Assembly: GCF_000025885.1 (NCBI RefSeq)
Contig: NC_014011.1
Location: 1,116,001 to 1,180,000, forward strand
From: Aminobacterium colombiense DSM 12261
GTDB lineage: Bacteria > Synergistota > Synergistia > Synergistales > Aminobacteriaceae
Direction: 5' to 3'
Length of the DNA: 64,000 nucleotides
How positions within the stretch are numbered: position 1 is the first letter of the stretch; each line of letters starts with the position of its first letter. This document shows, piece by piece, positions 13,138 to 30,280 of this stretch. Made by a program: the position numbers and the translations under genes. The notes beneath the pieces are model-generated. The model saw only the letters and a list, made by a program, of their open reading frames with translations, was not told the origin of the DNA and did not search any database.

Positions 13138-14133
13138 CTATCCCCTGGGGACAAAACCAATAGAATTTACTATCTCGTCGATGGTTTGCTGAGCTAAAAT
13201 CTGTGCTCTTTCTGCGCCAGCCAGTATGATATTCCTCAAGTTCTCAGAATGGGATTCGTAATATCGGCGTCGCTCATGGATAGGTTCCATCACCCGCTTT
13301 ACATGCTCCATAAGCATTTTTTTACACTGAACGCACCCTATTCCCGCTGTAGTACATCCTTTTATAATTTCTTTATGCTGTTCCTTGTCATCATTAAAAA
13401 CTTTGTGCAGATCCCAGACTGGGCATTTTTCCGGATCCCCAGGATCTGTTCTGCGCTCTCTAGCGGGATCTGTAATCATGGTCCGAATCTTATTCCACAT
13501 TTCTTCTGGAGAGTCAGCTATATCTATGCTGTTTCCATAAGATTTGCTCATTTTTCGACCGTCTGTACCTGGTACCTTGGGAGTCGGTGTCAAAAGCATT
13601 TGCGGCTCAGGGAGTATTTCTCCATAAAAATTATTGAAACGACGGGCCAGCTCTCTACTGATCTCAAGATGGGCGCTCTGATCCTCCCCTACCGGAACCA
13701 TCTCTGCCTTGTAAAGAAGAATATCTGATGCCATAAGAACTGGATAACCCAAAAAAGCATAGGTACCTAAGTCTTTATTCTGTATGTTTAATATCTGCTC
13801 TTTGTAGGTTGGATTCCGCTGAAGCCAGCCAAGAGGGGTTATCATGGATAAAGCCAAATGGAGCTCAGCATGCTGGGGAACATGAGACTGCACAAAAATT
13901 GTACTCTTTTCAGGGTCAAGACCAGCCGCAAGCCAATCTAAAAGAACCTCCTTGCAGTTTTTTCGAATCCTGCTGCTATCTGCGTAATCAGACATCAAAG
14001 CATGCCAGTCAACAATACAGTAAAGACATTCGTATTCGTTCTGAAGGCGCACCCAATTTGTTAGAGCCCCGGCCAAATGGCCCAAATGAAGTTTTCCTGT
14101 AGGTCGCATGCCGCTGAAAACTCTTTTTGCCAT
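13138..14133 (-). CDS. trpS: Tryptophanyl-tRNA synthetase
   Basis: 331 residues from an ATG with AGGTGGAG six bases upstream. It charges tRNA-Trp. It is a class I synthetase with the HIGH-type motif HLGHLAGA near residue 20 and the KMSKS loop near residue 195. SGMRPTGKLHLGH and VGEDQSAHLE are TrpRS signatures. It leads the scpA-scpB-rluB string. Confidence 0.97.
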   Translation of the reverse strand: MAKRVFSGMRPTGKLHLGHLAGALTNWVRLQNEYECLYCIVDWHALMSDYADSSRIRKNCKEVLLDWLAAGLDPEKSTIFVQSHVPQHAELHLALSMITPLGWLQRNPTYKEQILNIQNKDLGTYAFLGYPVLMASDILLYKAEMVPVGEDQSAHLEISRELARRFNNFYGEILPEPQMLLTPTPKVPGTDGRKMSKSYGNSIDIADSPEEMWNKIRTMITDPARERRTDPGDPEKCPVWDLHKVFNDDKEQHKEIIKGCTTAGIGCVQCKKMLMEHVKRVMEPIHERRRYYESHSENLRNIILAGAERAQILAQQTIDEIVNSIGFVPRG

Positions 14134-14969: not shown

Positions 14970-15016
14970 CTTTTCACCTCCAAGTTCCTACTTTACGGCA
15001 ATCAAACTATATAAAA

Positions 15017-15045
15017 AATGCCGCTTCCTACAGGGAAACGGCATT
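15017..15045 (-). terminator. Former terminator of tRNA-Ile2, now cut off by the prophage
   Basis: On the minus strand AATGCCG and CGGCATT form a stem (partly extended by TTTCC/GGAAG) followed by TTTTTTATA. It lies 10 bases beyond the left attachment repeat. Before integration it would have been about 10 bases after the 3' end of the minus-strand tRNA-Ile2 gene. Confidence 0.75.
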
Positions 15046-15054
15046 AACCTTCAA

Positions 15055-15077
15055 TGGTGGGCCTACCTGGACTCGAA
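15055..15077. repeat. Left attachment site (attL core)
   Basis: TGGTGGGCCTACCTGGACTC followed by GAA is identical to 54131-54153; the sequences diverge right after (ATCTCC here, CCAGGA at the right). It is a partial copy of the tRNA-Ile2 3' end including CCA. Confidence 0.92.
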
Positions 15078-15120
15078 ATCTCCTATAAAATGCCATGAAT
15101 GCCCACTTTCTCGCTAGCCG

Positions 15121-15140
15121 TTATACGGTTTGTTATACGG
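15121..15140 (+). promoter_or_regulatory. Paired TTATACGG motifs, probable integrase arm sites (left)
   Basis: TTATACGG occurs at 15121-15128 and 15133-15140, a 12-bp period. The same pair with the same spacing lies at the other prophage end. This symmetry fits arm-type binding sites of the tyrosine integrase. Confidence 0.7.
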
Positions 15141-15335
15141 TCTTGACTATCATTGTAATAGAATTCATTTTAAGTATTTGCTAGATTTTAGCACAATTTA
15201 AGGGGGGCGTGTACTGTTTAGTCTTTTTTGTAGATTTGCAACCAAATAGAGCCGTAGTTGCCTTAGTATGACTTGGACGATGATTTATACCTATGAGCCA
15301 CAAATATATTCTTAAAACGCATTCTGGCGGGTCGT
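15141..15335. other. Left-end non-coding stretch
   Basis: AT-rich sequence between the arm sites and the last small late gene. I see no convincing gene, terminator or repeat in it. Confidence 0.5.
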
Positions 15336-15431
15336 TTATTTTGATTTTTTATCCCAGGGCCACTTTCCTTTTTTATCCTTATATATAAAGCTACCTATAA
15401 CTATCAAAGTAAAAATCAACCCCAAACTCAT
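15336..15431 (-). CDS. Tiny membrane protein (31 aa), end of the lysis region
   Basis: ATG with AGGAGGGG five bases upstream. The product MSLGLIFTLIVIGSFIYKDK... has one hydrophobic segment followed by a basic tail rich in Lys and Trp. It follows the 35-residue gene by 13 bases. I do not recognise a family. Location after holin and spanin-like genes suggests a lysis accessory role, as inference only. Confidence 0.55.
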   Translation of the reverse strand: MSLGLIFTLIVIGSFIYKDKKGKWPWDKKSK

Positions 15432-15444
15432 AAAATCCCCTCCT

Positions 15445-15552
15445 TTATGGATATCCCGGCATACCGTCTTTAAATGCCAATAGAAATAAAATAAACACGG
15501 TTACTATTGCTCCGCATGCCATTCCGCCAACAAAGGCCAAAAAGCTAGTCAT
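15445..15552 (-). CDS. Tiny membrane protein (35 aa), end of the lysis region
   Basis: ATG with AAGGAGG seven bases upstream, starting 12 bases after the preceding stop. The product MTSFLAFVGGMACGAIVTVF... is one long transmembrane segment with a short KDGMPGYP tail. No family recognised. Good ribosome-binding site and tight packing argue that it is translated. Confidence 0.6.
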   Translation of the reverse strand: MTSFLAFVGGMACGAIVTVFILFLLAFKDGMPGYP

Positions 15553-15564
15553 TTCGGAACCTCC

Positions 15565-15960
15565 TTAATTACCAGCCATATACCCTACGCCAAGGGCCAG
15601 TAAAATATAGAGTCTGTTTTTCGCTTGATCGCTTTGCATCTCTTTCTTCCAGGCGTTTCTTTCTGCATCTAGCTGCTTTTTGAGATCCTCTAGTTGCTCT
15701 TTTGTGCTTTCCTGATAACTAAGGATCTCGCCCCTAAGATTTTCGTAAGCTTTTTCCCAAGCTTGCGATTCTATCCTGTATGCTCGAATTGCTGTAAGAG
15801 TATCCCGACCGTCGGCCTCATTCCCCCAAAACCCCGCTTCAGGAGTCGTCCATCCTGCTGGAACGTACTCCCATGCCCCGAAACTTTGCGAGCTCATCAT
15901 TAAGCTCGTTAGCGATAGAACTGCCAGGAAGAGAACGAACTTCTTGCGCAGTTTTTTCAC
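15565..15960 (-). CDS. Exported coiled-coil protein, possible outer partner of a spanin-like pair
   Basis: 131 residues. The N-terminus is a signal sequence (KKLRKKFVLFLAVLSLTSLMM) with likely cleavage after SQSFGA. There is no lipobox Cys. The middle (about 50-115) is charged and predicted coiled coil, and the C-terminus RLYILLALGVGYMAGN is hydrophobic. Its first 122 bases overlap the end of the upstream gene in another frame, the arrangement seen in phage Rz/Rz1 pairs. A function in outer-membrane disruption is inferred from position only. Confidence 0.6.
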   Translation of the reverse strand: MKKLRKKFVLFLAVLSLTSLMMSSQSFGAWEYVPAGWTTPEAGFWGNEADGRDTLTAIRAYRIESQAWEKAYENLRGEILSYQESTKEQLEDLKKQLDAERNAWKKEMQSDQAKNRLYILLALGVGYMAGN

Positions 15961-16180
15961 GGATCACCCTCACCTCTTTTCGAGTGGCTGTTTCCAATTC
16001 GTTTATTTTTTCTCCCAAAGCTTCGATTTCTTTTTGTAGTTGATCAGCCTTTAAATCTGTATTTATTAGAGTCTTAGGCAACTTGGGAGTTTTAAAGAGC
16101 GGTGTAATTATCCAAACTGCCAAGAGAATGCCAACTAAAATTATTCCCCAAAAAACAAAGTTTATTTTCCGCTCGAACAT
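15839..16180 (-). CDS. Inner-membrane coiled-coil protein, spanin-like
   Basis: 113 residues. One N-terminal transmembrane segment (FVFWGIILVGILLAVWIITPL) is followed by a periplasmic-type coiled coil (LQKEIEALGEKINELETATRKE). This is the architecture of inner-membrane spanins (Rz). It follows the holin gene with a 19-base overlap and overlaps the next gene by 122 bases. The fold is generic, so the call rests on location and topology. Confidence 0.6.
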   Translation of the reverse strand: MFERKINFVFWGIILVGILLAVWIITPLFKTPKLPKTLINTDLKADQLQKEIEALGEKINELETATRKEVRVIREKTAQEVRSLPGSSIANELNDELAKFRGMGVRSSRMDDS

Positions 16181-16488
16181 TCTCTCTCAACCCTTCCTGC
16201 CAAAGATTTCAAAACCCGCTTCTTGAGAACTTGCAAAACTTCATGAGAGGAATATCCAGAAATAGCAATTGAGGCACTTTTGAATCCTTGAGGGATAGAG
16301 ACTCCATCGAGCACGTAAAACACACAGATGCCTACGAAAGCAGAGGTGATAATTCCTGTAAAAAAGAACCACCACGAAAATTCTTCTTGCTTGCAATTAA
16401 GCCCGTGAGCTATTCCTCCAAAAACAGCGAGTGCTACCGGCGTTAAGAGCCGCGTTATTTGCTCTGCAAGTTTTCCTTCGCCCAACAA
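16162..16488 (-). CDS. Putative holin
   Basis: 108 residues with two hydrophobic segments (LLTPVALAVFGGIAHGL and FFFTGIITSAFVGICVFYVL) and a charged C-terminus. It sits directly after the endolysin gene. Holins form the inner-membrane holes that release the endolysin. I infer the role from topology and neighbours. Confidence 0.7.
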   Translation of the reverse strand: MLGEGKLAEQITRLLTPVALAVFGGIAHGLNCKQEEFSWWFFFTGIITSAFVGICVFYVLDGVSIPQGFKSASIAISGYSSHEVLQVLKKRVLKSLAGRVERECSSGK

Positions 16489-16494
16489 ATTTTC

Positions 16495-16872
16495 TCACCC
16501 TCTCCACTGCCGCAAATGCCCGTCTTTAGGTTTGTGTACATCTACGTGTATACGACCGTTATAAAGCCCGAGTCCTCCCAATTCAGAAAGTTTCCCATCT
16601 TTGTATGCCCGAAGAACCTTTGAATGAAAAACATTGTTAGAATATTTTGCTTGGCGAATATCCGCGGCTACGCCCTGCGTGTGCCAGCTATTTGGAACCC
16701 CGCCAATGCGTTTGTTATGCGTAGGGCAACGGTAGCCGGAATTGATGAAGATTGGCGTTCCTACCAAGGAGCGGATTTTTTCTAAAAGGCTCAAGAGTTT
16801 CGGTTTGATATCGCACCTATCACACCCACAACGGCATGCAAGTTCAGTTCTGCTAAAGTGCTCTGAAAGCAT
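16495..16872 (-). CDS. Peptidase M15-type endolysin
   Basis: 125 residues from an ATG with GGAGGGAG a few bases upstream. The family motifs are INSGYRCPTHNKRIGG, SWHTQGVAADIR (His and Asp zinc ligands) and GRIHVDVH (third ligand region). M15 peptidases cleave the peptide bridges of peptidoglycan. N-terminal LSEHFSRTELACRC is typical of phage and prophage D,D-carboxypeptidase-like lysins. Confidence 0.9.
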   Translation of the reverse strand: MLSEHFSRTELACRCGCDRCDIKPKLLSLLEKIRSLVGTPIFINSGYRCPTHNKRIGGVPNSWHTQGVAADIRQAKYSNNVFHSKVLRAYKDGKLSELGGLGLYNGRIHVDVHKPKDGHLRQWRG

Positions 16873-16895
16873 GTGTCTCCCTCCTCTCCATAAAA

Positions 16896-16923
16896 AAAGA
16901 GGCTGCCGTGTGGGCAACCTCTT
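16896..16923 (-). terminator. Terminator between the tail-fibre block and the lysis block
   Basis: On the minus strand AAGAGGTTGCCC and GGCAGCCTCTT form a stem with one mismatch, followed by TTTTTTTA. Lysis genes beyond it may rely on readthrough or antitermination. Confidence 0.75.
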
Positions 16924-16946
16924 GAGTGTTTAATTTAGCTATTCTC

Positions 16947-17543
16947 TTACCACTTGATTAGATTCAGTTCCTCTTCTGTAGTAACTGCTTCTACTTGGGC
17001 TATCAATACGGCCTCTTTATCAAAACAGGCCTGAACATGTGCCCTTACAGCCTTTGCAACAGCTTTGATCTCGTCTGCGACAAGCGTCACAAAACCGCCT
17101 TCTGTTTTCCATTGACACGAGTACGTAGGGTCGTCGATTTCCTGCAGGGCTGCACCAGTGATCATTGCCTGGCTCTCTCTATCAGTTTTTATTTTTAGCC
17201 CGTTTACCGAGATACCGGCTGTTTCCTCTGCCCAACGTGCACTTGCTATCTCAAGTAGCTTTTTAGGCCTCATAAAGAGCAATACATCTTCTTCCGTTGC
17301 ATCTGTTATTTCATACCCTGTAATTTCATCTGCCGCAAAAATAACGTGTTTTCCAGTTTTGCCTGTGAGAAGCACTTCTAGAAGCTTCATTTCATCGGGT
17401 ATTCCAGTAGAGCAATTGCCTACGGAATCCACAACAATATATCTATTCGCTGCATAAAAAAGCGTGTACTCCCCCTGCTCGCTATAGGGGATTTCTATTT
17501 CCGCCGCAGGCATAGCGCCTGCTGGGATAATGATTCTCCTCAT
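16947..17543 (-). CDS. DUF4376-containing protein, probable tail-fibre accessory
   Basis: 198 residues. The C-terminal 110 residues (RWAEETAGISVNGLKIKTDR ... YSCQWKTEGGFVTL ... AHVQACFDKEA) match the pattern of the DUF4376 domain found next to phage tail-fibre genes. The N-terminal half is unassigned. It lies just after the fibre gene, where P2-type phages keep a fibre-assembly chaperone. Confidence 0.7.
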   Translation of the reverse strand: MRRIIIPAGAMPAAEIEIPYSEQGEYTLFYAANRYIVVDSVGNCSTGIPDEMKLLEVLLTGKTGKHVIFAADEITGYEITDATEEDVLLFMRPKKLLEIASARWAEETAGISVNGLKIKTDRESQAMITGAALQEIDDPTYSCQWKTEGGFVTLVADEIKAVAKAVRAHVQACFDKEAVLIAQVEAVTTEEELNLIKW

Positions 17544-17576
17544 TTTCGCTTTCTCCCTTCATAGTCAAGATATTTG

Positions 17577-17593
17577 AGCGCCGACATGGCGCT
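17577..17593. repeat. Small inverted repeat after the fibre gene
   Basis: AGCGCC and GGCGCT form a 6-bp stem around five bases, 33 bases upstream of the DUF4376 start. There is no T-run, so it is not an obvious terminator. Confidence 0.5.
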
Positions 17594-17624
17594 TCTCATG
17601 CTGTTGCAAAGATTTATACCGTTT

Positions 17625-17646
17625 ATTCTCCGCTATCGCGGAGAAT
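17625..17646. repeat. Perfect 9-bp hairpin with GATA loop after the variable region
   Basis: On the minus strand ATTCTCCGC and GCGGAGAAT flank a GATA loop, 30 bases after the fibre stop. Between stop and hairpin are two near-identical copies of TTTGAACxCTGAA. A stem of this size with a four-base loop just after a variable region resembles the target-recognition hairpin described for diversity-generating retroelements. Confidence 0.65.
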
Positions 17647-17676
17647 TCAGGGTTCAAATGTTCAGTGTTCAAAATT

Positions 17677-19362
17677 CTAAACCTTTGCGAGACGGCCACC
17701 GCTGATGCTGCTCGAATTCGACGCAGCGGTGCCCAAATTCAGGTAGAACAGGCCAGCCTGCGAGCCATAGTACCAGCCGCCGCCGTAGTAGCACACCTTT
17801 GTACCATCTTTTGTAATCCAGAAATAATCGCTGTATGTACCATTGTCTTGCGATGAAATAGTAGTCTTTGGAAGGTATAACGCGCTCAAATCAAAGTTGG
17901 CCCCAGAAGCAACATGCATCTCGGTTGGATACCCACTATTGGGAAAAACCTCCCCTGTGTTAACAAAAGATTTGCCCCCTCCCGAATCCCACACCCAAAT
18001 AGCTCCATCTCGATTTTCAAGCCCTTGCACCATGCACCACGTGTTTCCCCAAAGTTCGTGTATGCCTCGCCATATGGCATTTGTATATCCGGTGCTGAGC
18101 GCCCATCCGCCCGAGGCATAAGGCACTAGCGAATCGCAATTTCCCCTGCCGAAAACAGATTGTGAGTCTGTTGTTCCCATTTCTACATGCGCTAGCATTT
18201 GTATAGCAGCGATCTGATAGATGTTTATGAGTGAAAATCCCGTTACGCCACTCGCATTTCGTGCATTACACCGTGATACCATCGTTGGAAAATCTATGAT
18301 GACGAGAGGCGGTTTTTTTATGCTACTGCCTGCTTTTGTTCCGCCATCATCAAAAGCCTCATAAGCGCCTATATAAAAGGAACTTATTTCTACGCCACCG
18401 TTGAGAAAAGCTGGATGCAATTTTGCGCCAGAAAAAGCAGTTTTGTTGACAAATCGAGCCTGCTTGCCTGCATATGGCCCAGATGGCAACGTTTTTACCA
18501 GGAAATAAAACTGGGAAATTTCCACCATAGCCTGATCGTCGACCGTAGATACAGAGATCTGATATTCCGGCCGGCTTGAGAAATACCCAGGTGGTGGCAT
18601 TACAGGGTTACCGTCTAAATCCACCCAATCCCAAAAACCCGCTCCGCCGCCTGGTTCAACAAGGACAAGGCCAATAGGTTGTGTTGTCGAAGCTTTGTCT
18701 AGAAGGCGCCTGCCGTTCCAGTATGTCGCATTTACCGCAAGACTTGATGTGGCCGCATTGCCAGTAATGTCACCTGGGAGTTTCCCCGCCGCATCGAGCT
18801 TTAAAACCTTGTTCGGTTCTGGAGACACCACTACCTCGGAGGTTTTGAGGTAGGGCAAGTTATTGTGAGCTGAGGAGTCGATATTATGGGTTGAAATACT
18901 GTCATCGACATACCCACGCGTTGACAGCACAACAGCAGGGTCAATCTTCAACGTAATTGCAGACGCGTTCGACACCTCTAAAATCATCCGAATATAAAGA
19001 TCTTTTCCAGATCCCTCAGCCAAAGCTGGCTTGTATGTAGCCGGGTATTTGCCTATGGCAATAACATCGCCTTCCGAGTCAATAATTCCAGCTTCCCGAA
19101 CTGTAAAACCTCCCGTTGTCGTAGGAATCACAACTTCAACAACAATCCAGTTGGGATTTTCACTATCCGTTTTTATCTGATTTATTGCCCCACGCCACAC
19201 CTCATTTTTAAGGGCCGTTTGTGACTCAGTAGGGTCGTAATAATTTCCAGATCCATCTCCAACAGCTATGGAAGAAAACTGCACCGTCGTTCCAAGTGCT
19301 TGGGCGTTAGCCAGTTTAGCTTTTCCCGTATTTGTTAAAATCGTATAAAAGTTTTCAGCCAT
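17677..19362 (-). CDS. Tail fibre with C-terminal lectin-like (FGE/C-type lectin fold) domain
   Basis: 561 residues. The N-terminal 150 residues (TNTGKAKLANAQ, FSSIAVGDG, REAGIIDSEGDVI) match the P2-type tail-fibre attachment domain. The C-terminal 230 residues have the formylglycine-generating-enzyme/C-lectin pattern, ending in GGGWYYGSQAGLFYLNLG and GGRLAKV. This is the shape of known receptor-binding proteins diversified by diversity-generating retroelements. Product sits at the baseplate and contacts the host surface. The gene follows gpI and precedes DUF4376. Confidence 0.88.
   Translation of the reverse strand: MAENFYTILTNTGKAKLANAQALGTTVQFSSIAVGDGSGNYYDPTESQTALKNEVWRGAINQIKTDSENPNWIVVEVVIPTTTGGFTVREAGIIDSEGDVIAIGKYPATYKPALAEGSGKDLYIRMILEVSNASAITLKIDPAVVLSTRGYVDDSISTHNIDSSAHNNLPYLKTSEVVVSPEPNKVLKLDAAGKLPGDITGNAATSSLAVNATYWNGRRLLDKASTTQPIGLVLVEPGGGAGFWDWVDLDGNPVMPPPGYFSSRPEYQISVSTVDDQAMVEISQFYFLVKTLPSGPYAGKQARFVNKTAFSGAKLHPAFLNGGVEISSFYIGAYEAFDDGGTKAGSSIKKPPLVIIDFPTMVSRCNARNASGVTGFSLINIYQIAAIQMLAHVEMGTTDSQSVFGRGNCDSLVPYASGGWALSTGYTNAIWRGIHELWGNTWCMVQGLENRDGAIWVWDSGGGKSFVNTGEVFPNSGYPTEMHVASGANFDLSALYLPKTTISSQDNGTYSDYFWITKDGTKVCYYGGGWYYGSQAGLFYLNLGTAASNSSSISGGRLAKV
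17680..17796 (-). other. Candidate variable region of a diversity-generating retroelement
   Basis: Codons 523-561 of the fibre. Many surface positions use NNC or NNT codons (TGC TAC TAC, TGG TAC TAT, TTC TAC, AGC AGC ATC AGC), as expected when AAC/AAT codons of a template are mutated at A. The scaffold residues GG-W, AG-F, AS and GRLA are kept. No template copy or reverse transcriptase is visible in this window. Confidence 0.6.
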
Positions 19363-19373
19363 ATCACCACCTC

Positions 19374-20030
19374 CTAAAGCGGATAAACCGTAACAGTTTC
19401 AACAACTTGGGCTCCAATGCCCCATCGCCAAAATACTGCACTCTCAACTTCCGTCACGTTGTACGGATAAACTGTAATTTCTTCACCAAAGAGGCTTGCC
19501 ATTGCAACTTTAGGAACCACACCCCGTACAGTAAGATATACATTCAACTCGTCGAGCCACGAACGAACGTTCTTGTACTCATCTATTAGTCGCTCTAAAA
19601 GCACATAGGTCTGCTCATCAAGTCCACGCTCGCTAAGCTCAAGAATCTCTACCTTGAATTTGTACGGCTCCCCACCGTATTCATACCATTCGGAAATAAC
19701 TCCACACATGGAGAGCATTTCGAAAATGCGAAGCAGCGCCGCTTTCGTTCCTTTCAGACGATGTATCTCAACAGCCCTTCGAACAAGATCTCTTTTCTCT
19801 TCAACCGAAACGGCCACCCCCGCACCCTCATCAAGGGTGATATGAAACTCCCACAGTAATAAATCTAGAATCGCTTCAGACAACTCGTCGATGCGCGGCA
19901 AGATGATGGTTTGAATCAAATGGGAATTAATATCGGCAAGTTGGCCATCTAACGCTAAAACCGCGGCTTCCACCTGAGGATCTTCAGCAATGCTTCCAGG
20001 GATAAGATCTTTCAACCCGGCACTAACCAT
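19374..20030 (-). CDS. Phage tail protein I (P2 gpI-like)
   Basis: 218 residues. The N-terminal pattern (LKDLIPGSIAEDPQVEAAVLALDGQLADIN) and LLLWEFHI match the P2 gpI baseplate family, which links the wedge to the fibre. The start overlaps the gpJ-like stop by 8 bases. Confidence 0.88.
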   Translation of the reverse strand: MVSAGLKDLIPGSIAEDPQVEAAVLALDGQLADINSHLIQTIILPRIDELSEAILDLLLWEFHITLDEGAGVAVSVEEKRDLVRRAVEIHRLKGTKAALLRIFEMLSMCGVISEWYEYGGEPYKFKVEILELSERGLDEQTYVLLERLIDEYKNVRSWLDELNVYLTVRGVVPKVAMASLFGEEITVYPYNVTEVESAVFWRWGIGAQVVETVTVYPL

Positions 20031-21132
20031 CTTCGAGCCCTCCGTAATTGATGGTCACGCTGTTTTCTTTAGCTACTTGCCACGCTTCTAACGCTGTATA
20101 TATAGGGTTTGACACTTCGACCCGCTTTGCCCCGGCATCCATCACACGCTTGATAAGCGCCGAGGGGTTAATATCTCTGCCCAATTTCGCTTTCTGCCAT
20201 GCAATATATTCCCCTACGGCAGTTGCCACCTGAGCCTGTATCGCAGAAATAGAGATAGCTTCTACGCGATCTATGAAATATGTGCAGTCAACGGAATAGG
20301 TAATTTGCTCCGGGGCTAAAACGGTCACCTGATCTGTCAGCGGTCGCACATCGTCAGCTGAGCAAATACTCAAAACCTCATCAAGTATTTCGGAACTGGG
20401 GAGTTCCCCTCCCTCCATCAACGGCCTTATTTCAACTTCTCCCGCAGCAGGAGATCTTACCGACACGTCAATTATTCCCTGGTGTGCAGTACGTGCCCAG
20501 AAATCATAGGCAAGTCGAGGCCCTGCAACAGAGTACCTTTCCATAGCTTGCCTTATACGCAATCTAAAATTATCATCTGATTCTTCATCAACACCACCCG
20601 TGGAAGCAGTTATATTTTCCACTTTTGAGATATACGGAAGAGGATCCACCAGTTTACTGATCTGCCCTATTGCAAAACCATTCCCGATTGAACCGCTCTG
20701 GGTACAGGTAACGACAGCGTCAACATACGTTGCTCCTGGGGTTATTTCGAGGGCTTCCTGCGTTGCGAAAAAGACACTGCCACCCGAAGTGACGCGAGTT
20801 CCCTGAGGTATAGAAACGGCGAATGTTTGAGCTATGGGCAACGAAAAACGGACTGTGGCCATTGACGGCTGTTCAGGAAGCCTCACCACCCCCTGCCTGT
20901 CACCCAAATGATCGAGATAATCTCCTGTAGAATAAGCCAGCAAATTTTGCTTCGCTGAAAAATCAATGATTACACGCTGTTGCGCTATAACAGCCGCCAC
21001 AGCCTCCAAGAAAAGTCTGACCGGATCCCCCTTTGCGAGAATCCGGCCTGCTGTTTGTTCATATTTCGCAAAAACCTCAGCCTCTACCTCGGCTGTAGAT
21101 TTTTCCGTAAAATCTATGTTAGGTAGTGTCAC
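20023..21132 (-). CDS. Baseplate wedge protein J (P2 gpJ-like)
   Basis: 369 residues. Hallmarks are the N-terminal TAEVEAEVFAKYEQ region, the beta-rich middle with SLPIAQTFAVSIPQGTRVTS and GSIGNG, and the ESDDNFRLRIRQAMER motif of the Baseplate_J family. It forms the baseplate periphery of the contractile tail. Overlaps its neighbours W (14 bases) and I (8 bases). Confidence 0.92.
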   Translation of the reverse strand: MTLPNIDFTEKSTAEVEAEVFAKYEQTAGRILAKGDPVRLFLEAVAAVIAQQRVIIDFSAKQNLLAYSTGDYLDHLGDRQGVVRLPEQPSMATVRFSLPIAQTFAVSIPQGTRVTSGGSVFFATQEALEITPGATYVDAVVTCTQSGSIGNGFAIGQISKLVDPLPYISKVENITASTGGVDEESDDNFRLRIRQAMERYSVAGPRLAYDFWARTAHQGIIDVSVRSPAAGEVEIRPLMEGGELPSSEILDEVLSICSADDVRPLTDQVTVLAPEQITYSVDCTYFIDRVEAISISAIQAQVATAVGEYIAWQKAKLGRDINPSALIKRVMDAGAKRVEVSNPIYTALEAWQVAKENSVTINYGGLEDG

Positions 21133-21439
21133 GAATTCTCACCTTCACTTTCGGAATTAGAATGCCGTCATAATGGTCGCTTTCAACGAAACCTACAAAC
21201 GTTACTTTCGCTCTGGGTTCAAACTTTTGAATTGCGCTAACAATTTCAGCTGACAACGCCGCCTGAGCCTTGGGTATTGGCTCGTCAAGCATGGTTGCAC
21301 TGAGTCCAAATTCGCGATCAAGTGGAACAGAATATTTCATCGTAGTGAGGATAGTACGAATGTTTTGTAAAACTTCTGCAACCTCCGTTTTAGGCCCAAA
21401 ATCAATTGCACCTTGTGCTCCGATCACCTCATATTCCAT
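21119..21439 (-). CDS. Baseplate protein W (gp25-like)
   Basis: 106 residues. The pattern VLQNIRTILTTMKYSVPLDREFGL is the conserved EPR-type core of the gpW/T4 gp25 family, which starts sheath polymerisation at the baseplate. It sits in the U-W-J-I order typical of P2-type tails. Confidence 0.9.
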   Translation of the reverse strand: MEYEVIGAQGAIDFGPKTEVAEVLQNIRTILTTMKYSVPLDREFGLSATMLDEPIPKAQAALSAEIVSAIQKFEPRAKVTFVGFVESDHYDGILIPKVKVRIRDTT

Positions 21440-21442
21440 TGT

Positions 21443-21832
21443 TTATTCCTCCACATATTCGCGTAAAGTCAAATCAACAGTAGCCCGAAGTAAATGTCCA
21501 TGATTATCAATTTGTGACCATGTTTCGTTTATGCTCTCTATAACAAATGTCCCCAACGGTCTTCCAGCTAAAATGAGAGGTGCATAAATGCCATCGTCTC
21601 TCATGTCGCGCAACCTACCTATTTCACCCCGTGGATTTACACCTAGAGAGGCCCTAAGAGAAATTGTCATCGTAACTGAATCTAAACCTGGCCCCATAAA
21701 CTCCAATACAGGCTTTTGGCCTGCCACTTCGTGCGTGCCAAATCGCGCATCACCTTGCCTTTGAAAGTTTTCAGGGGTTCTCACTTTATCGGCTGACGTT
21801 TCAAAAACCACATCTCCAAGGTAGCCTATCAT
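21443..21832 (-). CDS. Tail protein U-like (P2 gpU family)
   Basis: 129 residues. The start IGYLGDVVFETS, the FMGPGLDSVTMTISLRASLGVNP middle and GTFVIESINETWSQIDNHG match the P2 GpU family. In contractile phages this protein associates with the tail tube or its hub. It starts 6 bases after the PAAR gene. Confidence 0.85.
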   Translation of the reverse strand: MIGYLGDVVFETSADKVRTPENFQRQGDARFGTHEVAGQKPVLEFMGPGLDSVTMTISLRASLGVNPRGEIGRLRDMRDDGIYAPLILAGRPLGTFVIESINETWSQIDNHGHLLRATVDLTLREYVEE

Positions 21833-21838
21833 TTAGAG

Positions 21839-22132
21839 TTACCCCCCTGCAAAAACGTTATTTGATCCTATAGCAACGGAAGATCCACACGCTATAGGAT
21901 CTCCAACTCTTCCGGCTTCTTTGCCATTTATAAACACAGACGAACTACCAGACGCCAACACAGACGCATGGCACTCTGGAATATCAGGGCAACAATGCTC
22001 AGCCCAAGCATCGCCTTGTCTATGCCATGCTTTGCCATTAACAAAAACATTAGGAGATCCTTCAACCGAAGGCCGAGATGGCCATCAGCCATGGCCGGTA
22101 CAAACATCTCCTAACCTAGTTGCAGCAGGCAC
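21839..22132 (-). CDS. PAAR spike-tip protein with in-frame TGA at codon 16: candidate selenoprotein
   Basis: 97 residues if the TGA is read. The start is GTG with AAGGAGG seven bases upstream. The product begins MPAATRLGDVCTGHG, then TGA, then WPSRPSVEGSPNVFVNG. It continues with HRQGDAW, AEHCCPDIPECH, SVFINGKEAGRVGDP, ACGSSVAIGS and NNVFAGG. These are the repeated motifs of the PAAR family, which caps the membrane-piercing spike of contractile tails and binds a metal ion. As I recall the family, the residue after GHG is Cys, so TGA stands where Sec would replace Cys. The rest of the frame is open and has no decay. It lies between spike protein V and gpU with 12-base and 6-base gaps, the expected place. 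An ordinary nonsense mutation is the alternative; the hairpin just after the TGA and host selA/selB favour selenocysteine. Confidence 0.82.
22059..22087 (-). promoter_or_regulatory. SECIS-like hairpin directly after the in-frame TGA
   Basis: The TGA is 22087-22085. Twelve bases later CCUUC (22072-22068) and GAAGG (22063-22059) form a perfect 5-bp stem closed by GGUU. The loop starts 17 bases after the TGA. In E. coli fdhF the GGUCU loop of the SECIS starts 18 bases after its UGA, and SelB contacts the loop G and U. Pairing below this stem is weak, and I cannot assign a bulged U. Confidence 0.6.
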
Positions 22133-22144
22133 ATCTTCACCTCC

Positions 22145-22597
22145 TTAAGGGTTTAAATCAATTCGAGGTGCCTGAAGCGTTATATAACTTTCGCTCTCAA
22201 TTACGATATCTCCTGTGGAATGCACCGTCGTAGCTCCACTGCTACGATCATGCTCAATCCATGTACCATCCTCAAAATCTATGCGGCGTTTATTGGGGTC
22301 ACCGATCGTTGGCTTGTCTTTTGCGTTATACATAGCCCCTAGACAGAAACCTTGTTCCATACCATTGGGCAAAAAAACGCATAACACTTGCTCTCCAACA
22401 TCGGGTATAAAATAGTCTTTATTGCGCAAGGTCTGCCTCACTAGAACAGGTAAATCGTAGCTTACCATGCTGTCTTTATCACGGAAAAGCACTCGAACGG
22501 TGCCTTCTTCGGCATTAGCTGATGAAATCGTCCCTACACGCAAAATATTATTTAGTCGTTCCTCTATATCCATGAGGGCTTGATAATAGTCGAACAT
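22145..22597 (-). CDS. Baseplate spike protein V (P2 gpV-like)
   Basis: 150 residues. The OB-fold part has GTVRVLFRDKDSMVSYDLPVLV and VGEQVLCVFLPNG, followed by EDGTWIEHDRSSGATTVHS and a beta-helical tail. This is the trimeric central spike of a contractile tail. Its C-terminus lies next to the PAAR gene, whose product would cap it. Confidence 0.9.
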   Translation of the reverse strand: MFDYYQALMDIEERLNNILRVGTISSANAEEGTVRVLFRDKDSMVSYDLPVLVRQTLRNKDYFIPDVGEQVLCVFLPNGMEQGFCLGAMYNAKDKPTIGDPNKRRIDFEDGTWIEHDRSSGATTVHSTGDIVIESESYITLQAPRIDLNP

Positions 22598-23610
22598 TAG
22601 TACCCCTCCAACACCCGGTGAGCTTCCAAAGCAGTTAAATAGCCTCCCTGTTGATATGAATGCACTGCTTTGTCAATAAAATATTTACCGTCGAAATGCC
22701 CCCAGCCACTAAATTCAACATTGATACCTGCGACAATGCGCGGATCTCCACCTAACGTAATACTGCTCGTTGCCTGCTTTTTATTTTTTTTCCTAAGCTC
22801 TTTTTGTGCCAAATCCATAGCCTCGGCTAAAGATTCGACACGCTTATTTATCACCAGCGTCTGGCCTTCTTCAGCATCTGGAACGGTGTATGTATAAGTT
22901 TGTTCTTCTTTCTTTACAGAGTCATAGTATTTCACAGTACATTTAGCGAAAATATCGACTAAACTCGATGAAAAGGAGTAACGCTCTACATAGCTAAGTT
23001 CGCTTTTAATAACTAGAGCCGCGTCTTTTTGCTCATATGCCTGCTCTTCGAAAATAACCACTTTCTCATCTGTTACCTTTAATAAACATCCGGCTTCTTC
23101 GCAAAGTCTCTGAAGAAAAGCTAGGTCAGATTCATCTCGCTGATCGCGTCTCTCATATAAAGAATCAACTGCATCGTATAAAAGCTCAACCCTATTATTT
23201 TTAGCGATATCTCCAGCAATGCCTGAAAGAGAAATGTTTTCCCATGATCGATTTTTCTTCTCATTTTGCAATGAACTTTTCCCAGGAATTGAAATAGCTT
23301 TTATTTCAACAACCCCAGGTGGACCAGATAATGTAATCTCATCAATAGAAAAAGAGCCGCAAGGAAGTATCTTTTCATCACCAACGGCTCTCCAATTTTT
23401 TGTCTTAAAAGATACATTAATAGTTGCTCCTTTTTGAGGCATCCACCCTCCTCTCCAAAGCTCCTTTTTATCTTGTAGGATAATTGTTATATCGTCAGCT
23501 TTTCCATGCGCATTGTCCGTATATGTAATTGAGAGAAGGAAGGCAGAAATGTCTGCGCTAATATCAGTACCTTCGTATAATAGGGAAACCGCTGTCCGTC
23601 GACTCTTCAT
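22597..23610 (-). CDS. Tail hub protein D (P2 gpD-like)
   Basis: 337 residues from an ATG coupled as ATGA to the X gene, with AAGGAAGAG upstream. The family pattern (SLLYEGTDIS, SITYTDNAHGKADDITI, DLAFLQRLCEEAGCLLKV) matches late control gene D, the hub that holds the spike. Extra N-terminal residues from an upstream start are less likely. Confidence 0.9.
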   Translation of the reverse strand: MKSRRTAVSLLYEGTDISADISAFLLSITYTDNAHGKADDITIILQDKKELWRGGWMPQKGATINVSFKTKNWRAVGDEKILPCGSFSIDEITLSGPPGVVEIKAISIPGKSSLQNEKKNRSWENISLSGIAGDIAKNNRVELLYDAVDSLYERRDQRDESDLAFLQRLCEEAGCLLKVTDEKVVIFEEQAYEQKDAALVIKSELSYVERYSFSSSLVDIFAKCTVKYYDSVKKEEQTYTYTVPDAEEGQTLVINKRVESLAEAMDLAQKELRKKNKKQATSSITLGGDPRIVAGINVEFSGWGHFDGKYFIDKAVHSYQQGGYLTALEAHRVLEGY

Positions 23611-23825
23611 AAAAGTCTCTTCCTTTTCCAAGGAGGCATAGAGTCTGGCAACCTGTATTTTTTACTGACGTCAGGTATTTTGATATCTACCCCCTCACTA
23701 AAAAAAACTGTTTCTCTATGTTGGGGATTAGCTTCGATAATATCTGACATAAAATGCTCGTCCCCACATGTCTTTAAGGCAATGAGGTCCCATGTGTCAC
23801 CCTGAACCGTCTTGTATTTAGACAT
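23607..23825 (-). CDS. Tail protein X (LysM-like)
   Basis: 72 residues. The N-terminal half, [20 protein letters not shown], is the LysM-like signature of P2 gpX; it lies between tape measure and D. In contractile tails this protein binds peptidoglycan or packs at the baseplate. It overlaps the tape-measure stop by 8 bases. Confidence 0.9.
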
Positions 23826-26250
23826 AACTTAGCCTCCTCTCGTTATCAAACATCTTTCGCATCTTTTCAAGTAAATCGTCGTTACCAGAGGCAACAGCTC
23901 TTTCAACATCTTGCCGGGTGTCTCGCGTTTCACTCGTTGAGATACGAATGACAGGCGAATAGTTTATCGTTATGTTGTTATGAGATCCTCCATCGCGCAT
24001 TGTCGGTGCTGATGCCGCATCCCCTAAAAAACCTTTCATGCTATCGCTGAATGAACGGCCAAGTGTTGCTTCTAATGGGGTGCTCAAGGTGCTTTGAGGA
24101 ACAGACCTGGCACCCTGGGCTAGTGTTTTCATTATCGCTTGCCCAGATTCCGTTAGGTGAGATAAAGGTCCTTCCTTAGCGTCGGAAAATGGCAGAAGCT
24201 TCCGGACACGAGAAAGCACCCCTTTAACAGCTTCGACCGGCGCTGAGGCCGCGCTCTTTACGCCTGCGACAAAAGTCTGTATCAAGGCCCTTCCAGACTC
24301 AGATAGGTCAAAGTTGAAAATACTAAGGATTTTTGCTGGGATTGATTTTATGAAACTTACAAGAGCTGCACATTTTTCTCTTATACCATTTGCAAAAGCT
24401 CCAAACTTAGCGGCTATGACATCCCAGTTTTTATATAAGATGACCCCAGCAGCTACTAACGCAGTAACACCCATAATCAACAAGCCTATTGGATTTGCAT
24501 TCATCGCCGCATTCAATAACCACTGGGCGCCTGACCAAGCTTTAGTAGCAATAGTAACTAGCTTCATCTTAACCTGAGATGAGGTTAAAAGAGCTTGAAG
24601 AGTCTGCAATGCTAGTTTCCCCTGTAAGAAACCTCCGTACAAAAGAGACCAAGCATAAGAAGTGCCTATAGTAATAATTCGTAATGCCATGAGCCCCGCA
24701 ACCAGGCCCACAACAACTTTAGTAAGGGTAGGAAATTTTTCTGCCCCCATAGAAACAAACGAAACAACAGTAGCAGCTCTAGATGCCAAAGCTGCTATTG
24801 TCGGTAAAAGAGTATTTCCAACAGAAATTGAAATAGACTCCATAGCAGATCTAAATTTTGTTATAGCCCCCTTGGCATTGCTAGTAAATGTTTTTGCCAT
24901 CTTTTGCGCCGCGCCTTCTGCGTTTTGAATTTGCAAGATATATTCATCCAAGGCTCCGGCTCCGGTCGATGATTGTTTAATAAGCTCTGTCATGCCAGCG
25001 ACTGCTTCCTGACCAAATAAAGTAGCTATAAAAGCAGCTCTCTGAGCACTCCCCATCCCTTCTGTTTTTTGTGCAATATCTTTCAAAATAGCCGGGAGTG
25101 ATCGCAAATTCCCCTGAGCATCCATTGTCGATAGGCCAAGTGATTCCAATGCATCAGACGCTTCTTTTGATGGTTTTGCGATCTTTACAATAGCTGATCT
25201 TAGCGTTGTTCCGGCTTGCGACCCCTGAATACCAACGTTTCCGAGCAGTCCTACCATCGCCGAAGATTCTTCCATAGAGATTCCCATAGCAGAAGCAACT
25301 GGAGCTATGTATTTCATAGCATCGCCTAGTTGGATAATGTTAGTGTTTGATGTTGTGGCTGTTTTCGCTAAAACATCGCCCACTCGACCCATTTCTTTTG
25401 CCTTAAGACTAAATCCTGACAATATGTTTGATGCGATATCAGCAGTTTGCGCTAAATCGAGTTGGCCTGCAGAAGCCAAATCCAGCATACCAGGCATGGC
25501 TGCTAATACTTCATTTACCTTGAATCCTGCCATGCCTAAAAATTTCATGCCCTCGCCAGCTTGAGATGCAGAAAAAACAGTATCCCGCCCTAACCGTTTA
25601 GCCTCAACACTAAGAGCCTGCATTTCCTGGGCGGATGCATCCATAATGCCTCCCACCTCAGACATGGTAGCCTCAAAATTCATCGCGACACGCACAGGTG
25701 CTCCTACTGCAATTGCCATTGCCGTAGCGTCAAAAAGCTGACCTCGAAGTTTTGATGTTCTTTCACGGTTTGCTTCTATTGCTCCCCTTGTGGCTTGGAG
25801 GTTTTTTTGTGCCCGAGTAGCCTTCTCTATTTGAGCCGCTAGTTTAGCGGTATCTGCGCTCAAGTTCTTTGTAGATATTCCAGCAGCTTTCATAGATTCA
25901 GCCGAGCACTTAAAATCTTCTTTCTGCCCTTTAAGCTTTGTACTTAATTCAGAAACCTTTTTTTTCGCCCGTTCATAATCTTGCGTGAGTGCCTTGCTAG
26001 GGTTTTGGGTGTTTTTTATTTCGCGTGCGAGACGCTCTAAATCTGCCTTCGCATTACGAAATTGCAAAGAGGTTTCTGTCACCTGAGATCCAAGCTTTTT
26101 AAAGTTACCTATTTCCGCTTGAACCTTGTTAAGAACAGAAACCTCTTTGTTAAGATTTTGCAAAGCCCCAGTTGCTGTCAGCATAGACTTATTAAACGAG
26201 CTTTTTAGCTTCCCATCTAACTGAAAAGCTAACTCATAAATTTTTGCCAT
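23818..26250 (-). CDS. Tail tape measure protein
   Basis: 810 residues. The N-terminal 170 residues are coiled coil. The centre carries the TP901-type core ([56 protein letters not shown]). It is followed by hydrophobic segments ([20 protein letters not shown]). Its length sets tail length and it exits the tube at injection. It starts 5 bases after the E' stop. Confidence 0.93.
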
Positions 26251-26254
26251 GCTA

Positions 26255-26682
26255 TCACACCCTTGGCAGTGCTTTTTTTAATGATTCAGCCCATGCTGGT
26301 AGTTCACGAAGGGGGACATTGAGCCAAAATGCTATAGAAGTTGAAGATGATATGGCAAGTTGAGTTACAATATCGCGGATCTGGTTGCTGGCGTTCTTGG
26401 CTAGTCCTGCATTAGCAAAAAATTCTGCACCTGCAATGTTATAGCCGTAAAATCCTTAGCTCCTAGAGAAAGGATGAGCTCAACTGGAACCTTCGCTGCC
26501 CTTGCTGCCACATAAGCCTGAAAAGCCTTTGATGTCTCTGCAACTCCAGCAGCATTACCCGTGGCCACAAACTCCCTCTCCGCCACAACAATATCATCAC
26601 CGGTTAGGGATTCTAGGGGAACATTGATATCTTTATATTCTTTCCCCTCAAATGTAAGAGGCTTATTCAATTCATGTTTCAT
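26255..26682 (-). CDS. E+E' fusion by -1 programmed frameshift
   Basis: The slippery heptamer T TTT TTG lies in the zero frame at 26422-26416, five codons before the E stop. A -1 shift gives ...[20 protein letters not shown]... and continues to TGA at 26255-26257. The extension ends [20 protein letters not shown], the pattern of P2 E'. In P2 the same heptamer drives the E/E' shift. The longer product is thought to bring tape measure and tube together. Confidence 0.85.
26401..26682 (-). CDS. Tail assembly chaperone E (zero-frame product)
   Basis: 93 residues from an ATG with AAGGAG nine bases upstream; a GTG two codons earlier sits too close to that site. The sequence ([27 protein letters not shown]) matches the P2 gpE / tail-assembly chaperone family. 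The stop TAG follows a slippery site, so the protein is made alone or as an E+E' fusion. Confidence 0.85.
   Translation of the reverse strand: MKHELNKPLTFEGKEYKDINVPLESLTGDDIVVAEREFVATGNAAGVAETSKAFQAYVAARAAKVPVELILSLGAKDFTAITLQVQNFLLMQD
26416..26422 (-). promoter_or_regulatory. Slippery heptamer TTTTTTG
   Basis: Reads T TTT TTG in the E frame, the classical -1 slippage site; after slipping, the next codon is GCT and the -1 frame stays open for about 55 codons. Confidence 0.85.
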
Positions 26683-26695
26683 ATTCACCCACTCC

Positions 26696-27220
26696 TTACA
26701 GACCTAAATCTTCTCTCACAGAAGCTAGGTAGTCTTCTTCATCTATTACACAAATATAGTTAAACTTATCGATTTCTATTCGAGGAACCCCGTCATACCA
26801 AAGCTTAAGGTATACGACTTCAAATTCAACACTAGAATCAGAAGTTGTTCCAACGTCAAACTTTCCCAAACCGATAGTTTTAGGAATACCTCTGATGGCT
26901 AACTTTATAGGTGTTGTTTTGTATTCTCCTGAGGCAGCATTATAAACCTGAACAGATCCACGTAAATCTAGCGCATGCGCTCTTTGTTTTGCTAGGGTAG
27001 TTGCTTTCTCTGTAAGAGTCCTCCAGTTTAAGGTAACGCCCATAGAGCCAAAGTGCCCGAGCACTGGTGAATCTACCTCTCCGGCAATGCCTGCGCCCTT
27101 AACAGTCTCTGTCATGGCTTCTAGCGATGGTAGTTCAACATCCGCAACGCCAAGTAAATCAATTGAACCTTCTAGATACACTCTAAAATTTATTAGTTTT
27201 TCAGGTACTGGGTTACTCAT
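26696..27220 (-). CDS. Major tail tube protein (P2 FII-like)
   Basis: 174 residues, the usual size. The pattern LINFRVYLEGSIDLLGVADVELPSLEAM and GSVQVYNAASGEYKTTPIKLAIRGIPKTIGLGKFD matches the FII family. It builds the inner tube beneath the sheath. AGGAGG lies before the ATG. Confidence 0.93.
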   Translation of the reverse strand: MSNPVPEKLINFRVYLEGSIDLLGVADVELPSLEAMTETVKGAGIAGEVDSPVLGHFGSMGVTLNWRTLTEKATTLAKQRAHALDLRGSVQVYNAASGEYKTTPIKLAIRGIPKTIGLGKFDVGTTSDSSVEFEVVYLKLWYDGVPRIEIDKFNYICVIDEEDYLASVREDLGL

Positions 27221-27232
27221 TTATCTGACCTC

Positions 27233-28681
27233 CTAAGCAAACAGTGTTTGTAAATATGCCGGGTCATATTCAAGAAGGAAATCTATTTCACGGGCAGGAG
27301 TAGGAGGTGTGATGTAAACGTGGAATTTCACTATACCGTCCATGAGGTCCGTAGTAGGGTTTTCTTCTTGCAAAAACTCTACTCGCCCACCCAAAATAAA
27401 TTGCCGCGCAGACAATCCGTTTAACCAGATGTTCGCTGAATCGACTATTGTTTCTATTAGCCGCTTGTTGATGGGATAATCCACCTTCTGCCAAAAGGTT
27501 TGAACTAACGTATTCCCTATCCAGTTAAACATGCGTCGTAGTGGTATAAATGCATCTTTGGGATCTGTTACAGAGGGGTAAACACCAGTTCTATTTCCCC
27601 AACACTTCCAACCGCCAATAAAGTTTAATCCTGTCACAACACCTTGCCCATTTAAATAGGCTGCCTGGTCTGGCCCAAGCCAAACTTCTTCCCCAGAGTC
27701 CAAAACAACACTATTTGCTTGGAAAGACTTATTAGATGGGCTCATGTACGGAATGTCTTCGTTATCTGCGTCTGTTTTGCAAATAACACCAGCTACATGA
27801 GTGCTCATGTGGAAAGTCTTGTCTCCTAATTTGAGCTTTGGCCAACATACAACTTGAAGCTTGTCCATATAATTGTTCGTGTTCTTCCATGCAGCAACAT
27901 CTGTATATAGAGTTACCTCATCTGTCGGGATATCCGTTATAGCAATGGCTTTGAAGTGTTCGTTAATATTGCTTGCCTTTGCCGTCATGACTGCTGCAAC
28001 AACGGGATCATCGCTCCAACCAGGAGCGACAATCTGACCAGGTATTAATCTAAATCGAGGGAATATCTCATTAATAAGCTCAAGGCCTTTCTTTTTACCT
28101 GTCGCTATGTCTACTCCTCCAACAATATCCGTCGAAGCAACAGCAGAAGGGTCAAGATAATCGTACTCAACTGTAAGAGTAGCTCCTTCGGTGATTGTTC
28201 CTGTAGGTATACGGGAAATAACACACTCTTCTTCATTATTAAATGATAAAACGTAATCCGTATTAAGCTTATTTGTTGTGGCATCGGTTTTAATAACAAC
28301 AGAAGACAAGAGAACGCCTTTATTTTTCAAAATGGCTTCGCCGTCTGCATTTAATGTTACAGATTCTGTTGGCACTGAAGATTTATGGGTCACTGGGTCT
28401 AGCACGTTTATAAGCACAACTGGCCCAACGGCGTATAAGGCAAACTGCGAATATATAAACTCACAGAGCGTGTAATCTTTCCAGTTTGCAGAATAGCCTA
28501 ATGCTTGCACAGCTTCTTGATAAGAGTAGCAAAGAACCGGCTCGTTTACCTTACCCTTGCCATCTAAAGATAAATTCACTGGAGCTGAGCCAATAACGAC
28601 AGGCAGAGCCGCATCGCTTCTTACTGGTGGAACAATGGCAGTTGGAATCTCAGAAACATAAACGCCATGTTTATACGACAT
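27233..28681 (-). CDS. Tail sheath protein (P2 FI-like)
   Basis: 482 residues from an ATG with GAGAGGTG upstream. Diagnostic parts are YKHGVYVSEI at the start, VIGSAPV, the LEVV-like middle, and the C-terminal RRMFNWIGNTLVQTFWQKVD and GRVEFLQEENPTTDLMDG. It contracts to drive the tube through the envelope. Confidence 0.95.
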   Translation of the reverse strand: MSYKHGVYVSEIPTAIVPPVRSDAALPVVIGSAPVNLSLDGKGKVNEPVLCYSYQEAVQALGYSANWKDYTLCEFIYSQFALYAVGPVVLINVLDPVTHKSSVPTESVTLNADGEAILKNKGVLLSSVVIKTDATTNKLNTDYVLSFNNEEECVISRIPTGTITEGATLTVEYDYLDPSAVASTDIVGGVDIATGKKKGLELINEIFPRFRLIPGQIVAPGWSDDPVVAAVMTAKASNINEHFKAIAITDIPTDEVTLYTDVAAWKNTNNYMDKLQVVCWPKLKLGDKTFHMSTHVAGVICKTDADNEDIPYMSPSNKSFQANSVVLDSGEEVWLGPDQAAYLNGQGVVTGLNFIGGWKCWGNRTGVYPSVTDPKDAFIPLRRMFNWIGNTLVQTFWQKVDYPINKRLIETIVDSANIWLNGLSARQFILGGRVEFLQEENPTTDLMDGIVKFHVYITPPTPAREIDFLLEYDPAYLQTLFA

Positions 28682-28955
28682 CCTCATCACCTCTCATATG
28701 AGCTTTTGCCTGTCTGTATAGAAGATTTTCTTTTGTCCCTTGTTCATTGATTTTTTTTCGAGTGTTGCTCAAATCTTTGATTGGAACAATAAGAGCTCCA
28801 ATCGCTGGAGTTTTTTCTACCATTTTTTTTACATGGGGAGGTATTCCACCTTGAAACACTGTAAATTGAGCTAGGCTACCTCCTGGTAAGTTCGGCCCGC
28901 AATAAACAACTGAATCAATTTCAGGTAGAGTTTTCTTGTCTCGTTTTTTTGACAT
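28671..28955 (-). CDS. Uncharacterised phage protein (Mu-type tail region)
   Basis: 94 residues. Basic at both ends, with a central VVYCGPNLPGGSLAQFTVFQ stretch. It sits between tail terminator and sheath, where Mu-like phages keep a small unassigned gene. It overlaps the sheath start by 11 bases. The function is unknown. Confidence 0.75.
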   Translation of the reverse strand: MSKKRDKKTLPEIDSVVYCGPNLPGGSLAQFTVFQGGIPPHVKKMVEKTPAIGALIVPIKDLSNTRKKINEQGTKENLLYRQAKAHMRGDEDVV

Positions 28956-29399
28956 TTACATCACCTCGGTTATTTCCTGTGGAAGTGGCACAACCCACGT
29001 TGTTGTAATTTCACCAGCCCATTCAGGATATGGCTGGTCATCAAACAACCGCCACGAAAAAGGGTATTCCATCCTATATTTTTTCTCTAAAACACGCTGC
29101 TCTCCAAATGCAATGCGAATTCGTTCCATGATGTTCAGAACATCCCGGAATCCGTTCGGATCTTCCGCATATGTGCCAACCAGTATTTTTACCGTAACAG
29201 TGGCCATTTCTTCAGAGTCTTTGCCTTCTGAAGCTCGTACAATGACATAAGGGAAATCGGGGATGTCGCTCGATCTTTTGGAAGGAAGCCAACCAGCGAC
29301 GACTTGCGGAGCCTTTGTGGTTTTTTGGTTTGTTTCAAGTGAATAATTTTTAATGACAGCACCTAGAAACGCACAAATTGAATCTACAAGATCGTTCAT
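28956..29399 (-). CDS. Probable tail terminator/completion protein
   Basis: 147 residues. The pattern with RSSDIPDFPYVIVRASEG, ATVTVKILVGTYAEDPNGFRDVLNIMERIRIAF and final WAGEITTTWVVPLP resembles the tail-completion (Mu gp37-type) proteins found directly before the sheath gene. Call is from pattern and position. Confidence 0.65.
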   Translation of the reverse strand: MNDLVDSICAFLGAVIKNYSLETNQKTTKAPQVVAGWLPSKRSSDIPDFPYVIVRASEGKDSEEMATVTVKILVGTYAEDPNGFRDVLNIMERIRIAFGEQRVLEKKYRMEYPFSWRLFDDQPYPEWAGEITTTWVVPLPQEITEVM

Positions 29400-29954
29400 T
29401 TAACGGCCTCCTTCCATTAAGTAGATGATTTGATGGTCGAGCTCTTTTTCAAAACGTCGCAAGGCATTTTCTTCTATAGACGTACGAACTGCTTCTGAGC
29501 CAATCATTGTCGGAGCAGCCGGACCTGTTAGGGCGACTATTGGAAGTTGCTTTTTCCCGACACGCTCGAAAATGCTGGTATGGCCACTTTTCATAGTCGC
29601 AACAAAAGCTCGGAACAAAGGCTTCATGGTTCCATCGTTTTTAACTTGCACCATCACCGGCCGTTTTTGTTTTGCGTTCTGTTTACGGATCTTGAACTTG
29701 TAAAGGTCAATCCGCTGGCCTCTTGAGACTGCGCTAACTCTTAACGTATTAGGTTTTGAGCTTGAAAGACGAATCGTACTCCGTATATCTTTTGCCTTAG
29801 CAACATATTCTTCTCGCGCCGACCGAACAGCGTCCGTTCTAATTCCTTTTACTGCCTTATTCAAAGAGCGGGAAAGGGCCTTTTCGGCCCCTCCCTTAAT
29901 TCCCGCTAATGCTTTTTTTGCATGCTCTACATTTTCTGCGTTTAAATCGATCAT
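29400..29954 (-). CDS. Minor tail protein Z-like (tail completion)
   Basis: 184 residues. ALSRSLNKAVKGIRTDAVR and the basic beta-rich middle KFKIRKQNAKQKRPVMVQ, then KSGHTSIFERVGKKQLPI, match the prophage minor tail protein Z family of lambda-type and Mu-type phages. It overlaps the preceding gene as ATGA. Confidence 0.78.
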   Translation of the reverse strand: MIDLNAENVEHAKKALAGIKGGAEKALSRSLNKAVKGIRTDAVRSAREEYVAKAKDIRSTIRLSSSKPNTLRVSAVSRGQRIDLYKFKIRKQNAKQKRPVMVQVKNDGTMKPLFRAFVATMKSGHTSIFERVGKKQLPIVALTGPAAPTMIGSEAVRTSIEENALRRFEKELDHQIIYLMEGGR

Positions 29955-30277: not shown

Positions 30278-30280
30278 CGT

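Follow-up and report, generated by a model that had tools for sequence, protein, structure and literature searches.

A prophage tail-fibre tip in Aminobacterium colombiense that is probably an orphaned client of a diversity-generating retroelement

Surveys detect diversity-generating retroelements (DGRs) through their reverse transcriptase (RT) and a variable region (VR) lying nearby. One large survey states that remote targets are invisible to it (PMC8144416). In phages, DGR targets carry a hairpin with a 7-10 bp stem and a GRNA loop, and efficient homing depends on this structure (Guo et al., PMC3240598). Among DGR variable proteins, TaqVP (structure 5VF4) has the FGE-subtype CLec fold (PMC6328139). 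DGR fragments that have no RT were described in Nanoarchaeota as fossils or remote targets (PMC4372165). The locus compared here with these systems belongs to Aminobacterium colombiense ALA-1T, whose genome is one closed contig of 1,980,592 bp and was published as one replicon with no extrachromosomal elements (PMC3035294). The window, that is, the whole 64-kb stretch of DNA that was analysed, contains a prophage and, within it, a fibre gene and its neighbour:

15055-54153, no strand assigned: prophage, its ends being a 23-bp direct repeat at 15055-15077 and 54131-54153
17677-19362, minus strand: tail-collar fibre gene, 561 aa, with a phage_tail_fib N-terminus and a C-terminal DGR client domain
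16947-17543, minus strand: DUF4376 gene (PF14301, E=2e-24), the next gene after the fibre gene

The right-hand repeat (54131-54153) lies where a tRNA-Met gene ends. An element of about 39 kb had been proposed in the initial annotation, which was made from the sequence alone, and the direct repeats give about 39.1 kb. No relative was found in Phage GenBank records by either DNA or protein, and a scan of genome contigs with the domain alignment also found none. In Aminobacterium sp. MB27-C1, a CRISPR spacer (L155 2519-2556) matches the prophage (window positions 21426-21463), and also the sister phage L047, at 38/38 nucleotides, which is evidence of attacks on the genus by phages of this kind.

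The fibre protein is composed of two parts. Its N-terminus is a collar-fibre domain (PF12571, aa 1-149, E=2.3e-66), and its C-terminus, which ends in ...CYYGGGWYYGSQAGLFYLNLGTAASNSSSISGGRLAKV, lacks a dedicated Pfam family and matches phrog_5302 (aa 276-559, E=5e-28). The C-terminal part corresponds to the following features:

17677-18670, minus strand: exchangeable tip module, homologous to DGR client fibres; upper limit approximate
17686-17784, minus strand: VR core, from codon alignment with the template repeats (TRs) of L051, L010 and L012

The tip module is 39-50% identical to the client fibres of L009, L010, L051, L012 and a plasmid of Ideonella dechloratans. Among the homologous fibres in IMG/VR contigs are those of L051 (IMGVR_UViG_3300005909_000008) and L010 (3300043120_000159), each accompanied by a VR, an Avd-like gene, a TR and an RT; the Avd-like gene of L010 matches PF22296 (E=1.9e-27). 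The fibres of L009 and L010 are near-identical, yet their VRs are strongly different. When compared with 5VF4, a profile of the narrow family (A1) gave E=3.2e-4 and a wider profile (A3) gave E=2e-61, and related clients match PF03781 (FGE-sulfatase). By profile, the tip domain thus appears to be an FGE-subtype CLec domain related to TaqVP. AlphaFold2 models of the tip with 7 and 11 homologues reached pLDDT values of 38 and 32, too poor for use as fold evidence.

The initial annotation placed a DGR-type VR at 17680-17796 and noticed many NNC and NNT codons there. This is a real DGR variable region, with the alignable core 17686-17784 inside it, and the codon bias holds when counted: NNY occurs at 13 of the 14 candidate VR codons against 53% across the fibre gene (p=0.002). 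Codons were then classed by whether the homologous TR has an A at position 1 or 2, and the amino-acid differences of the fibre VR were counted in each class. Against the TR of L051, amino-acid changes fall on 10 of 14 A-codons versus 1 of 18 others (p=1.4e-4). The corresponding numbers are 11/13 versus 2/19 for the TR of L010 (p=3.9e-5) and 9/13 versus 1/19 for that of L012 (p=2.2e-4); all three TRs come from homologues and none is cognate. For DNA, the A-bias is modest with TRs this distant (p about 0.002-0.013), as divergence has affected other sites too. The best matches to the fibre VR among all fetched loci are TRs, with 73, 71 and 71 of 99 positions identical, and any VR reaches at most 67, as expected for a VR descended from a TR-like sequence. 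The silent sites of the fibre VR differ from every known TR, so that no available TR can be its direct template. We infer past mutagenesis of exactly the region 17686-17784 from relatives that are 39-50% identical in protein, since a cognate TR was found nowhere in the searches. As the outcome that would speak against a DGR target, the initial annotation had named a genome lacking both RT and TR together with ordinary, codon-wide divergence. The first part was indeed observed, as described below, but the second was not: homologous VRs differ from their own TRs almost only at adenines.

The signals used for homing also seem to be present:

17686-17700, minus strand: IMH-like invariant 3' end of the VR (GGTGGCCGTCTCGCA), compared with the TR 3' ends of L012 and Ideonella
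17625-17646, minus strand: hairpin with a 9-bp stem and a GATA (GRNA) loop, past the fibre stop codon and downstream of the VR

The TR of L012 ends in GGCGGTCGCCTCGCA and that of Ideonella in GGTGGCCGCCTCGCA. The hairpin, ATTCTCCGC-GATA-GCGGAGAAT, which the initial annotation had overlooked, is the sole stem of at least 9 bp with a GRNA loop in the 64-kb window, and its region folds better as DNA than 200 of 200 shuffled sequences (z=-3.36). It starts 39 nt past the VR core; for L010, L051 and L012, whose loops are GAGA, GATA and GATA, the spacing amounts to 41, 41 and 34 nt, respectively. The hairpin position and the loop class are common to L009, L010, L012 and L051. Rfam gave no match within 15000-20000. 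An intrinsic terminator at 17625-17646 was considered and ruled out; the T-run is absent, and a terminator scan gives only another site. Elsewhere in the window, another perfect 9-bp hairpin, with the 4-nt loop ATTT (864-885), adjoins a tRNA-Pro gene (777-854) and is probably the terminator of that gene. Judged by their sequences, both homing elements of the fibre VR, the IMH-like end and the GRNA hairpin, appear intact.

It may be argued that the domain merely resembles DGR clients, and that it was shaped by ordinary selection, no RT having ever mutagenized it in this lineage. FGE and CLec folds do occur in proteins that have no DGR, the fibre now stands without a cassette, and its silent sites match no known TR, as mentioned above. 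However, such a coincidence would have to bring together changes at TR-adenine codons, an NNY bias and a GRNA hairpin at the right position in one gene whose closest sequences are TRs and whose homologues are nearly all linked to a DGR. We therefore regard mere resemblance as very unlikely, and the combined signature argues that the fibre tip is a genuine DGR target, or client.

The cassette that should accompany such a client was sought in the whole genome. The 1,980,592 bp contain no RVT_1 protein, and the RT of a homologous DGR used as a query found nothing there at E <= 10; as a positive control, this query does retrieve RTs from 47 of 185 Synergistota genomes. A BLAST search with the VR at E <= 10 over the whole genome gave no TR, just chance matches of 14-17 nt, and a degenerate VR pattern allowing 3 mismatches found the VR itself only. 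A purpose-written detector of TR/VR pairs, which recovers the pairs in nine loci (L010, L051, L047, L058, L060, L061, L014, L017 and L020), found no pair in the 64-kb window. PF05635 (Avd-like) has no match in three Aminobacterium genomes, although known Avds match PF22296 (bAvd) better, and no Avd-type ORF adjoining the fibre gene was seen. Other Synergistota genomes yielded short DNA matches to the VR, the best three of which are due to chance, with 47-53 of 114 positions identical over the full length. In IMG/VR, exact patterns derived from the silent positions of the VR and from its 3' end retrieved the same prophage only, and no contig with a compatible TR. The view in the initial annotation that neither RT nor TR is visible in the 39-kb element thus agrees with the RT searches and the pair detector, and the genome-wide check for a DGR RT and a near-copy TR proposed there, now run, found neither. 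There the fibre had been called either an orphan or the remote target of a retroelement residing at another place in its host's genome. The orphan stands, and the remote target in its own genome fails because the genome has no RT and no TR; within their reach, the RT and TR searches exclude a cassette at another host locus. Any assembly may collapse or drop repeats, and RT and TR might have been lost or broken in this way. This is extremely improbable for a closed, single-contig chromosome that is 99.9% complete and a prophage bounded by its 23-bp repeats; moreover, the IMG/VR copy of the same prophage likewise has no RT. No remnant of Avd, TR or RT lies beside the fibre gene, so the separation left no direct trace there.

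Separation of clients from their cassettes is seen in relatives. In L012, one TR serves two clients: the one adjoining the cassette has 12 of 12 mismatches at TR adenines, and a second client, about 30 kb away, has 8 of 8 (L012 9568-10686; L169 1472-2420). The L012 contig is possibly permuted, in which case the distance to the second client would shrink to about 10 kb; it also holds a Mu-like transposase ORF, as read by eye. In the Ideonella dechloratans plasmid, a client of the same fibre family lies 64 kb from its TR and has 11 of 11 mismatches at TR adenines (L167 and L170; NZ_CP088082.1 628371-629348 and 563375-566774). The Ideonella TR adjoins two tandem RT-avd cassettes and an integrase. 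From the arrangement of these two loci, clients and cassettes do separate in this fibre family. Within Synergistota, matches to the phrog_5302 VR end adjoin an RT in all loci except this genome and the draft genome G109. In G109 (L059 3870-5250), an Avd truncated to 92 aa comes after the VR, with a tail-sheath-like gene (by eye) next, and the locus has no TR and no DGR RT. The single RT match of this draft sits in a neighbourhood that is cas1/cas10-like and CRISPR-cas-like by eye. The G109 VR looks like a second, visibly decaying orphan in Synergistota.

Given such remote clients, the fibre tip might still be served in trans by a DGR on an element outside the sequenced genome, such as a co-infecting phage, a plasmid or another strain. 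The cis elements that look intact, the fully adenine-directed mismatches of the clients at 30 kb and 64 kb, the demonstration in E. coli of a DGR that functions when carried on a second plasmid (PMC12875486) and the existence of a sister phage with a full DGR (L047) all speak for this possibility. It is nevertheless unlikely, because the closed genome has neither RT nor TR and its publication reports no extrachromosomal element (PMC3035294), a TR that fits the silent sites of the VR occurs in no IMG/VR contig, and L047 has a different type of TR, with an NGFRLA end instead of GGRLAKV and a poor match to the fibre VR.

The sister phages illustrate the exchange of tips. L047 is 95.5% identical to positions 18749-30542 of the window (11.8 kb), and its homology to the fibre gene stops at fibre nt 614. 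At the same locus (L047 12431-15255) it has an FGE-type client and a complete DGR with a different tip, consisting of a VR (13420-13528), a TR (13934-14042), an RT and a bAvd (E=2.9e-33). In L046 and L154 (prophage of Aminobacterium sp. MB27-C1), homology to the fibre gene stops at nt 524 and the tips are non-DGR. Since the siblings carry differing tips past the shaft, the tip is an exchangeable module that comes with or without a cassette. The DUF4376 gene occupies the spot held by avd-TR-RT in L010, L051 and L047, and L046 and L154 have a gene of similar kind there, as judged by eye.

Taken together, the VR signature, the hairpin, the homology to cassette-bearing DGR clients, the absence of RT and TR and the variable tips of siblings are best explained by a DGR client that was probably orphaned through tip swapping or cassette loss, with its cis elements apparently intact. 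In an ancestor, an avd-TR-RT cassette would have copied the TR and put in random bases at adenines, and the resulting cDNA would have taken the place of the VR in the 3'-terminal part of the fibre gene, at a site marked by the IMH-like end and the GRNA hairpin. The tip module may then have come in by recombination at the boundary of fibre shaft and tip, without the cassette, or the cassette may have been deleted. Capture without the cassette is estimated to be slightly the likelier route because the genes behind the tip are ordered as in cassette-free siblings, although the data do not separate the two. An orphaned tip would now be fixed in A. colombiense ALA-1T and bound to one receptor specificity, and its homing signals could be reused if a cassette whose TR matches were supplied in trans. 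As a more speculative idea, to which we give little credence, the tip might be a mobile client moving between phages apart from mutator cassettes and keeping its homing signals through trans diversification by the DGRs of co-resident phages. If true, one phage would borrow the mutator of another.

Compared with known systems, the prophage is not a complete DGR, since both a DGR-type RT and a near-identical TR are absent. It shares with the DGR of Bordetella phage BPP-1 and its tail fibre Mtd a 3'-terminal VR in a CLec-fold tip (assigned by profile in A. colombiense), an IMH-type end and a downstream GRNA hairpin (PMC3240598); unlike BPP-1, the A. colombiense phage and its host genome have no TR or RT. 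With TaqVP of a Thermus aquaticus prophage (5VF4, PMC6328139) it shares an FGE-subtype CLec client, with a profile match over the whole domain, but TaqVP belongs to a complete DGR, whereas the A. colombiense tip is joined in one protein with a PF12571 collar-fibre N-terminus and lacks a cassette. The DGRs of L051 and L010 have the same client domain (46-49% identical) and the same hairpin position, and there an Avd-like gene, a TR and an RT lie within about 2 kb of the VR, in contrast to none in A. colombiense. The RT-less fragments of Nanoarchaeota (PMC4372165) are likewise sites with a DGR history and no RT, but those genomes hold other DGRs and the whole genome of A. colombiense has none. 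A closed genome that holds a client with apparently intact cis signals and no cassette, beside varied siblings and clients 30-64 kb from their cassettes, shows that clients part from their cassettes in the course of evolution, and the A. colombiense fibre offers a clean natural orphan for testing DGR supply in trans between phages.
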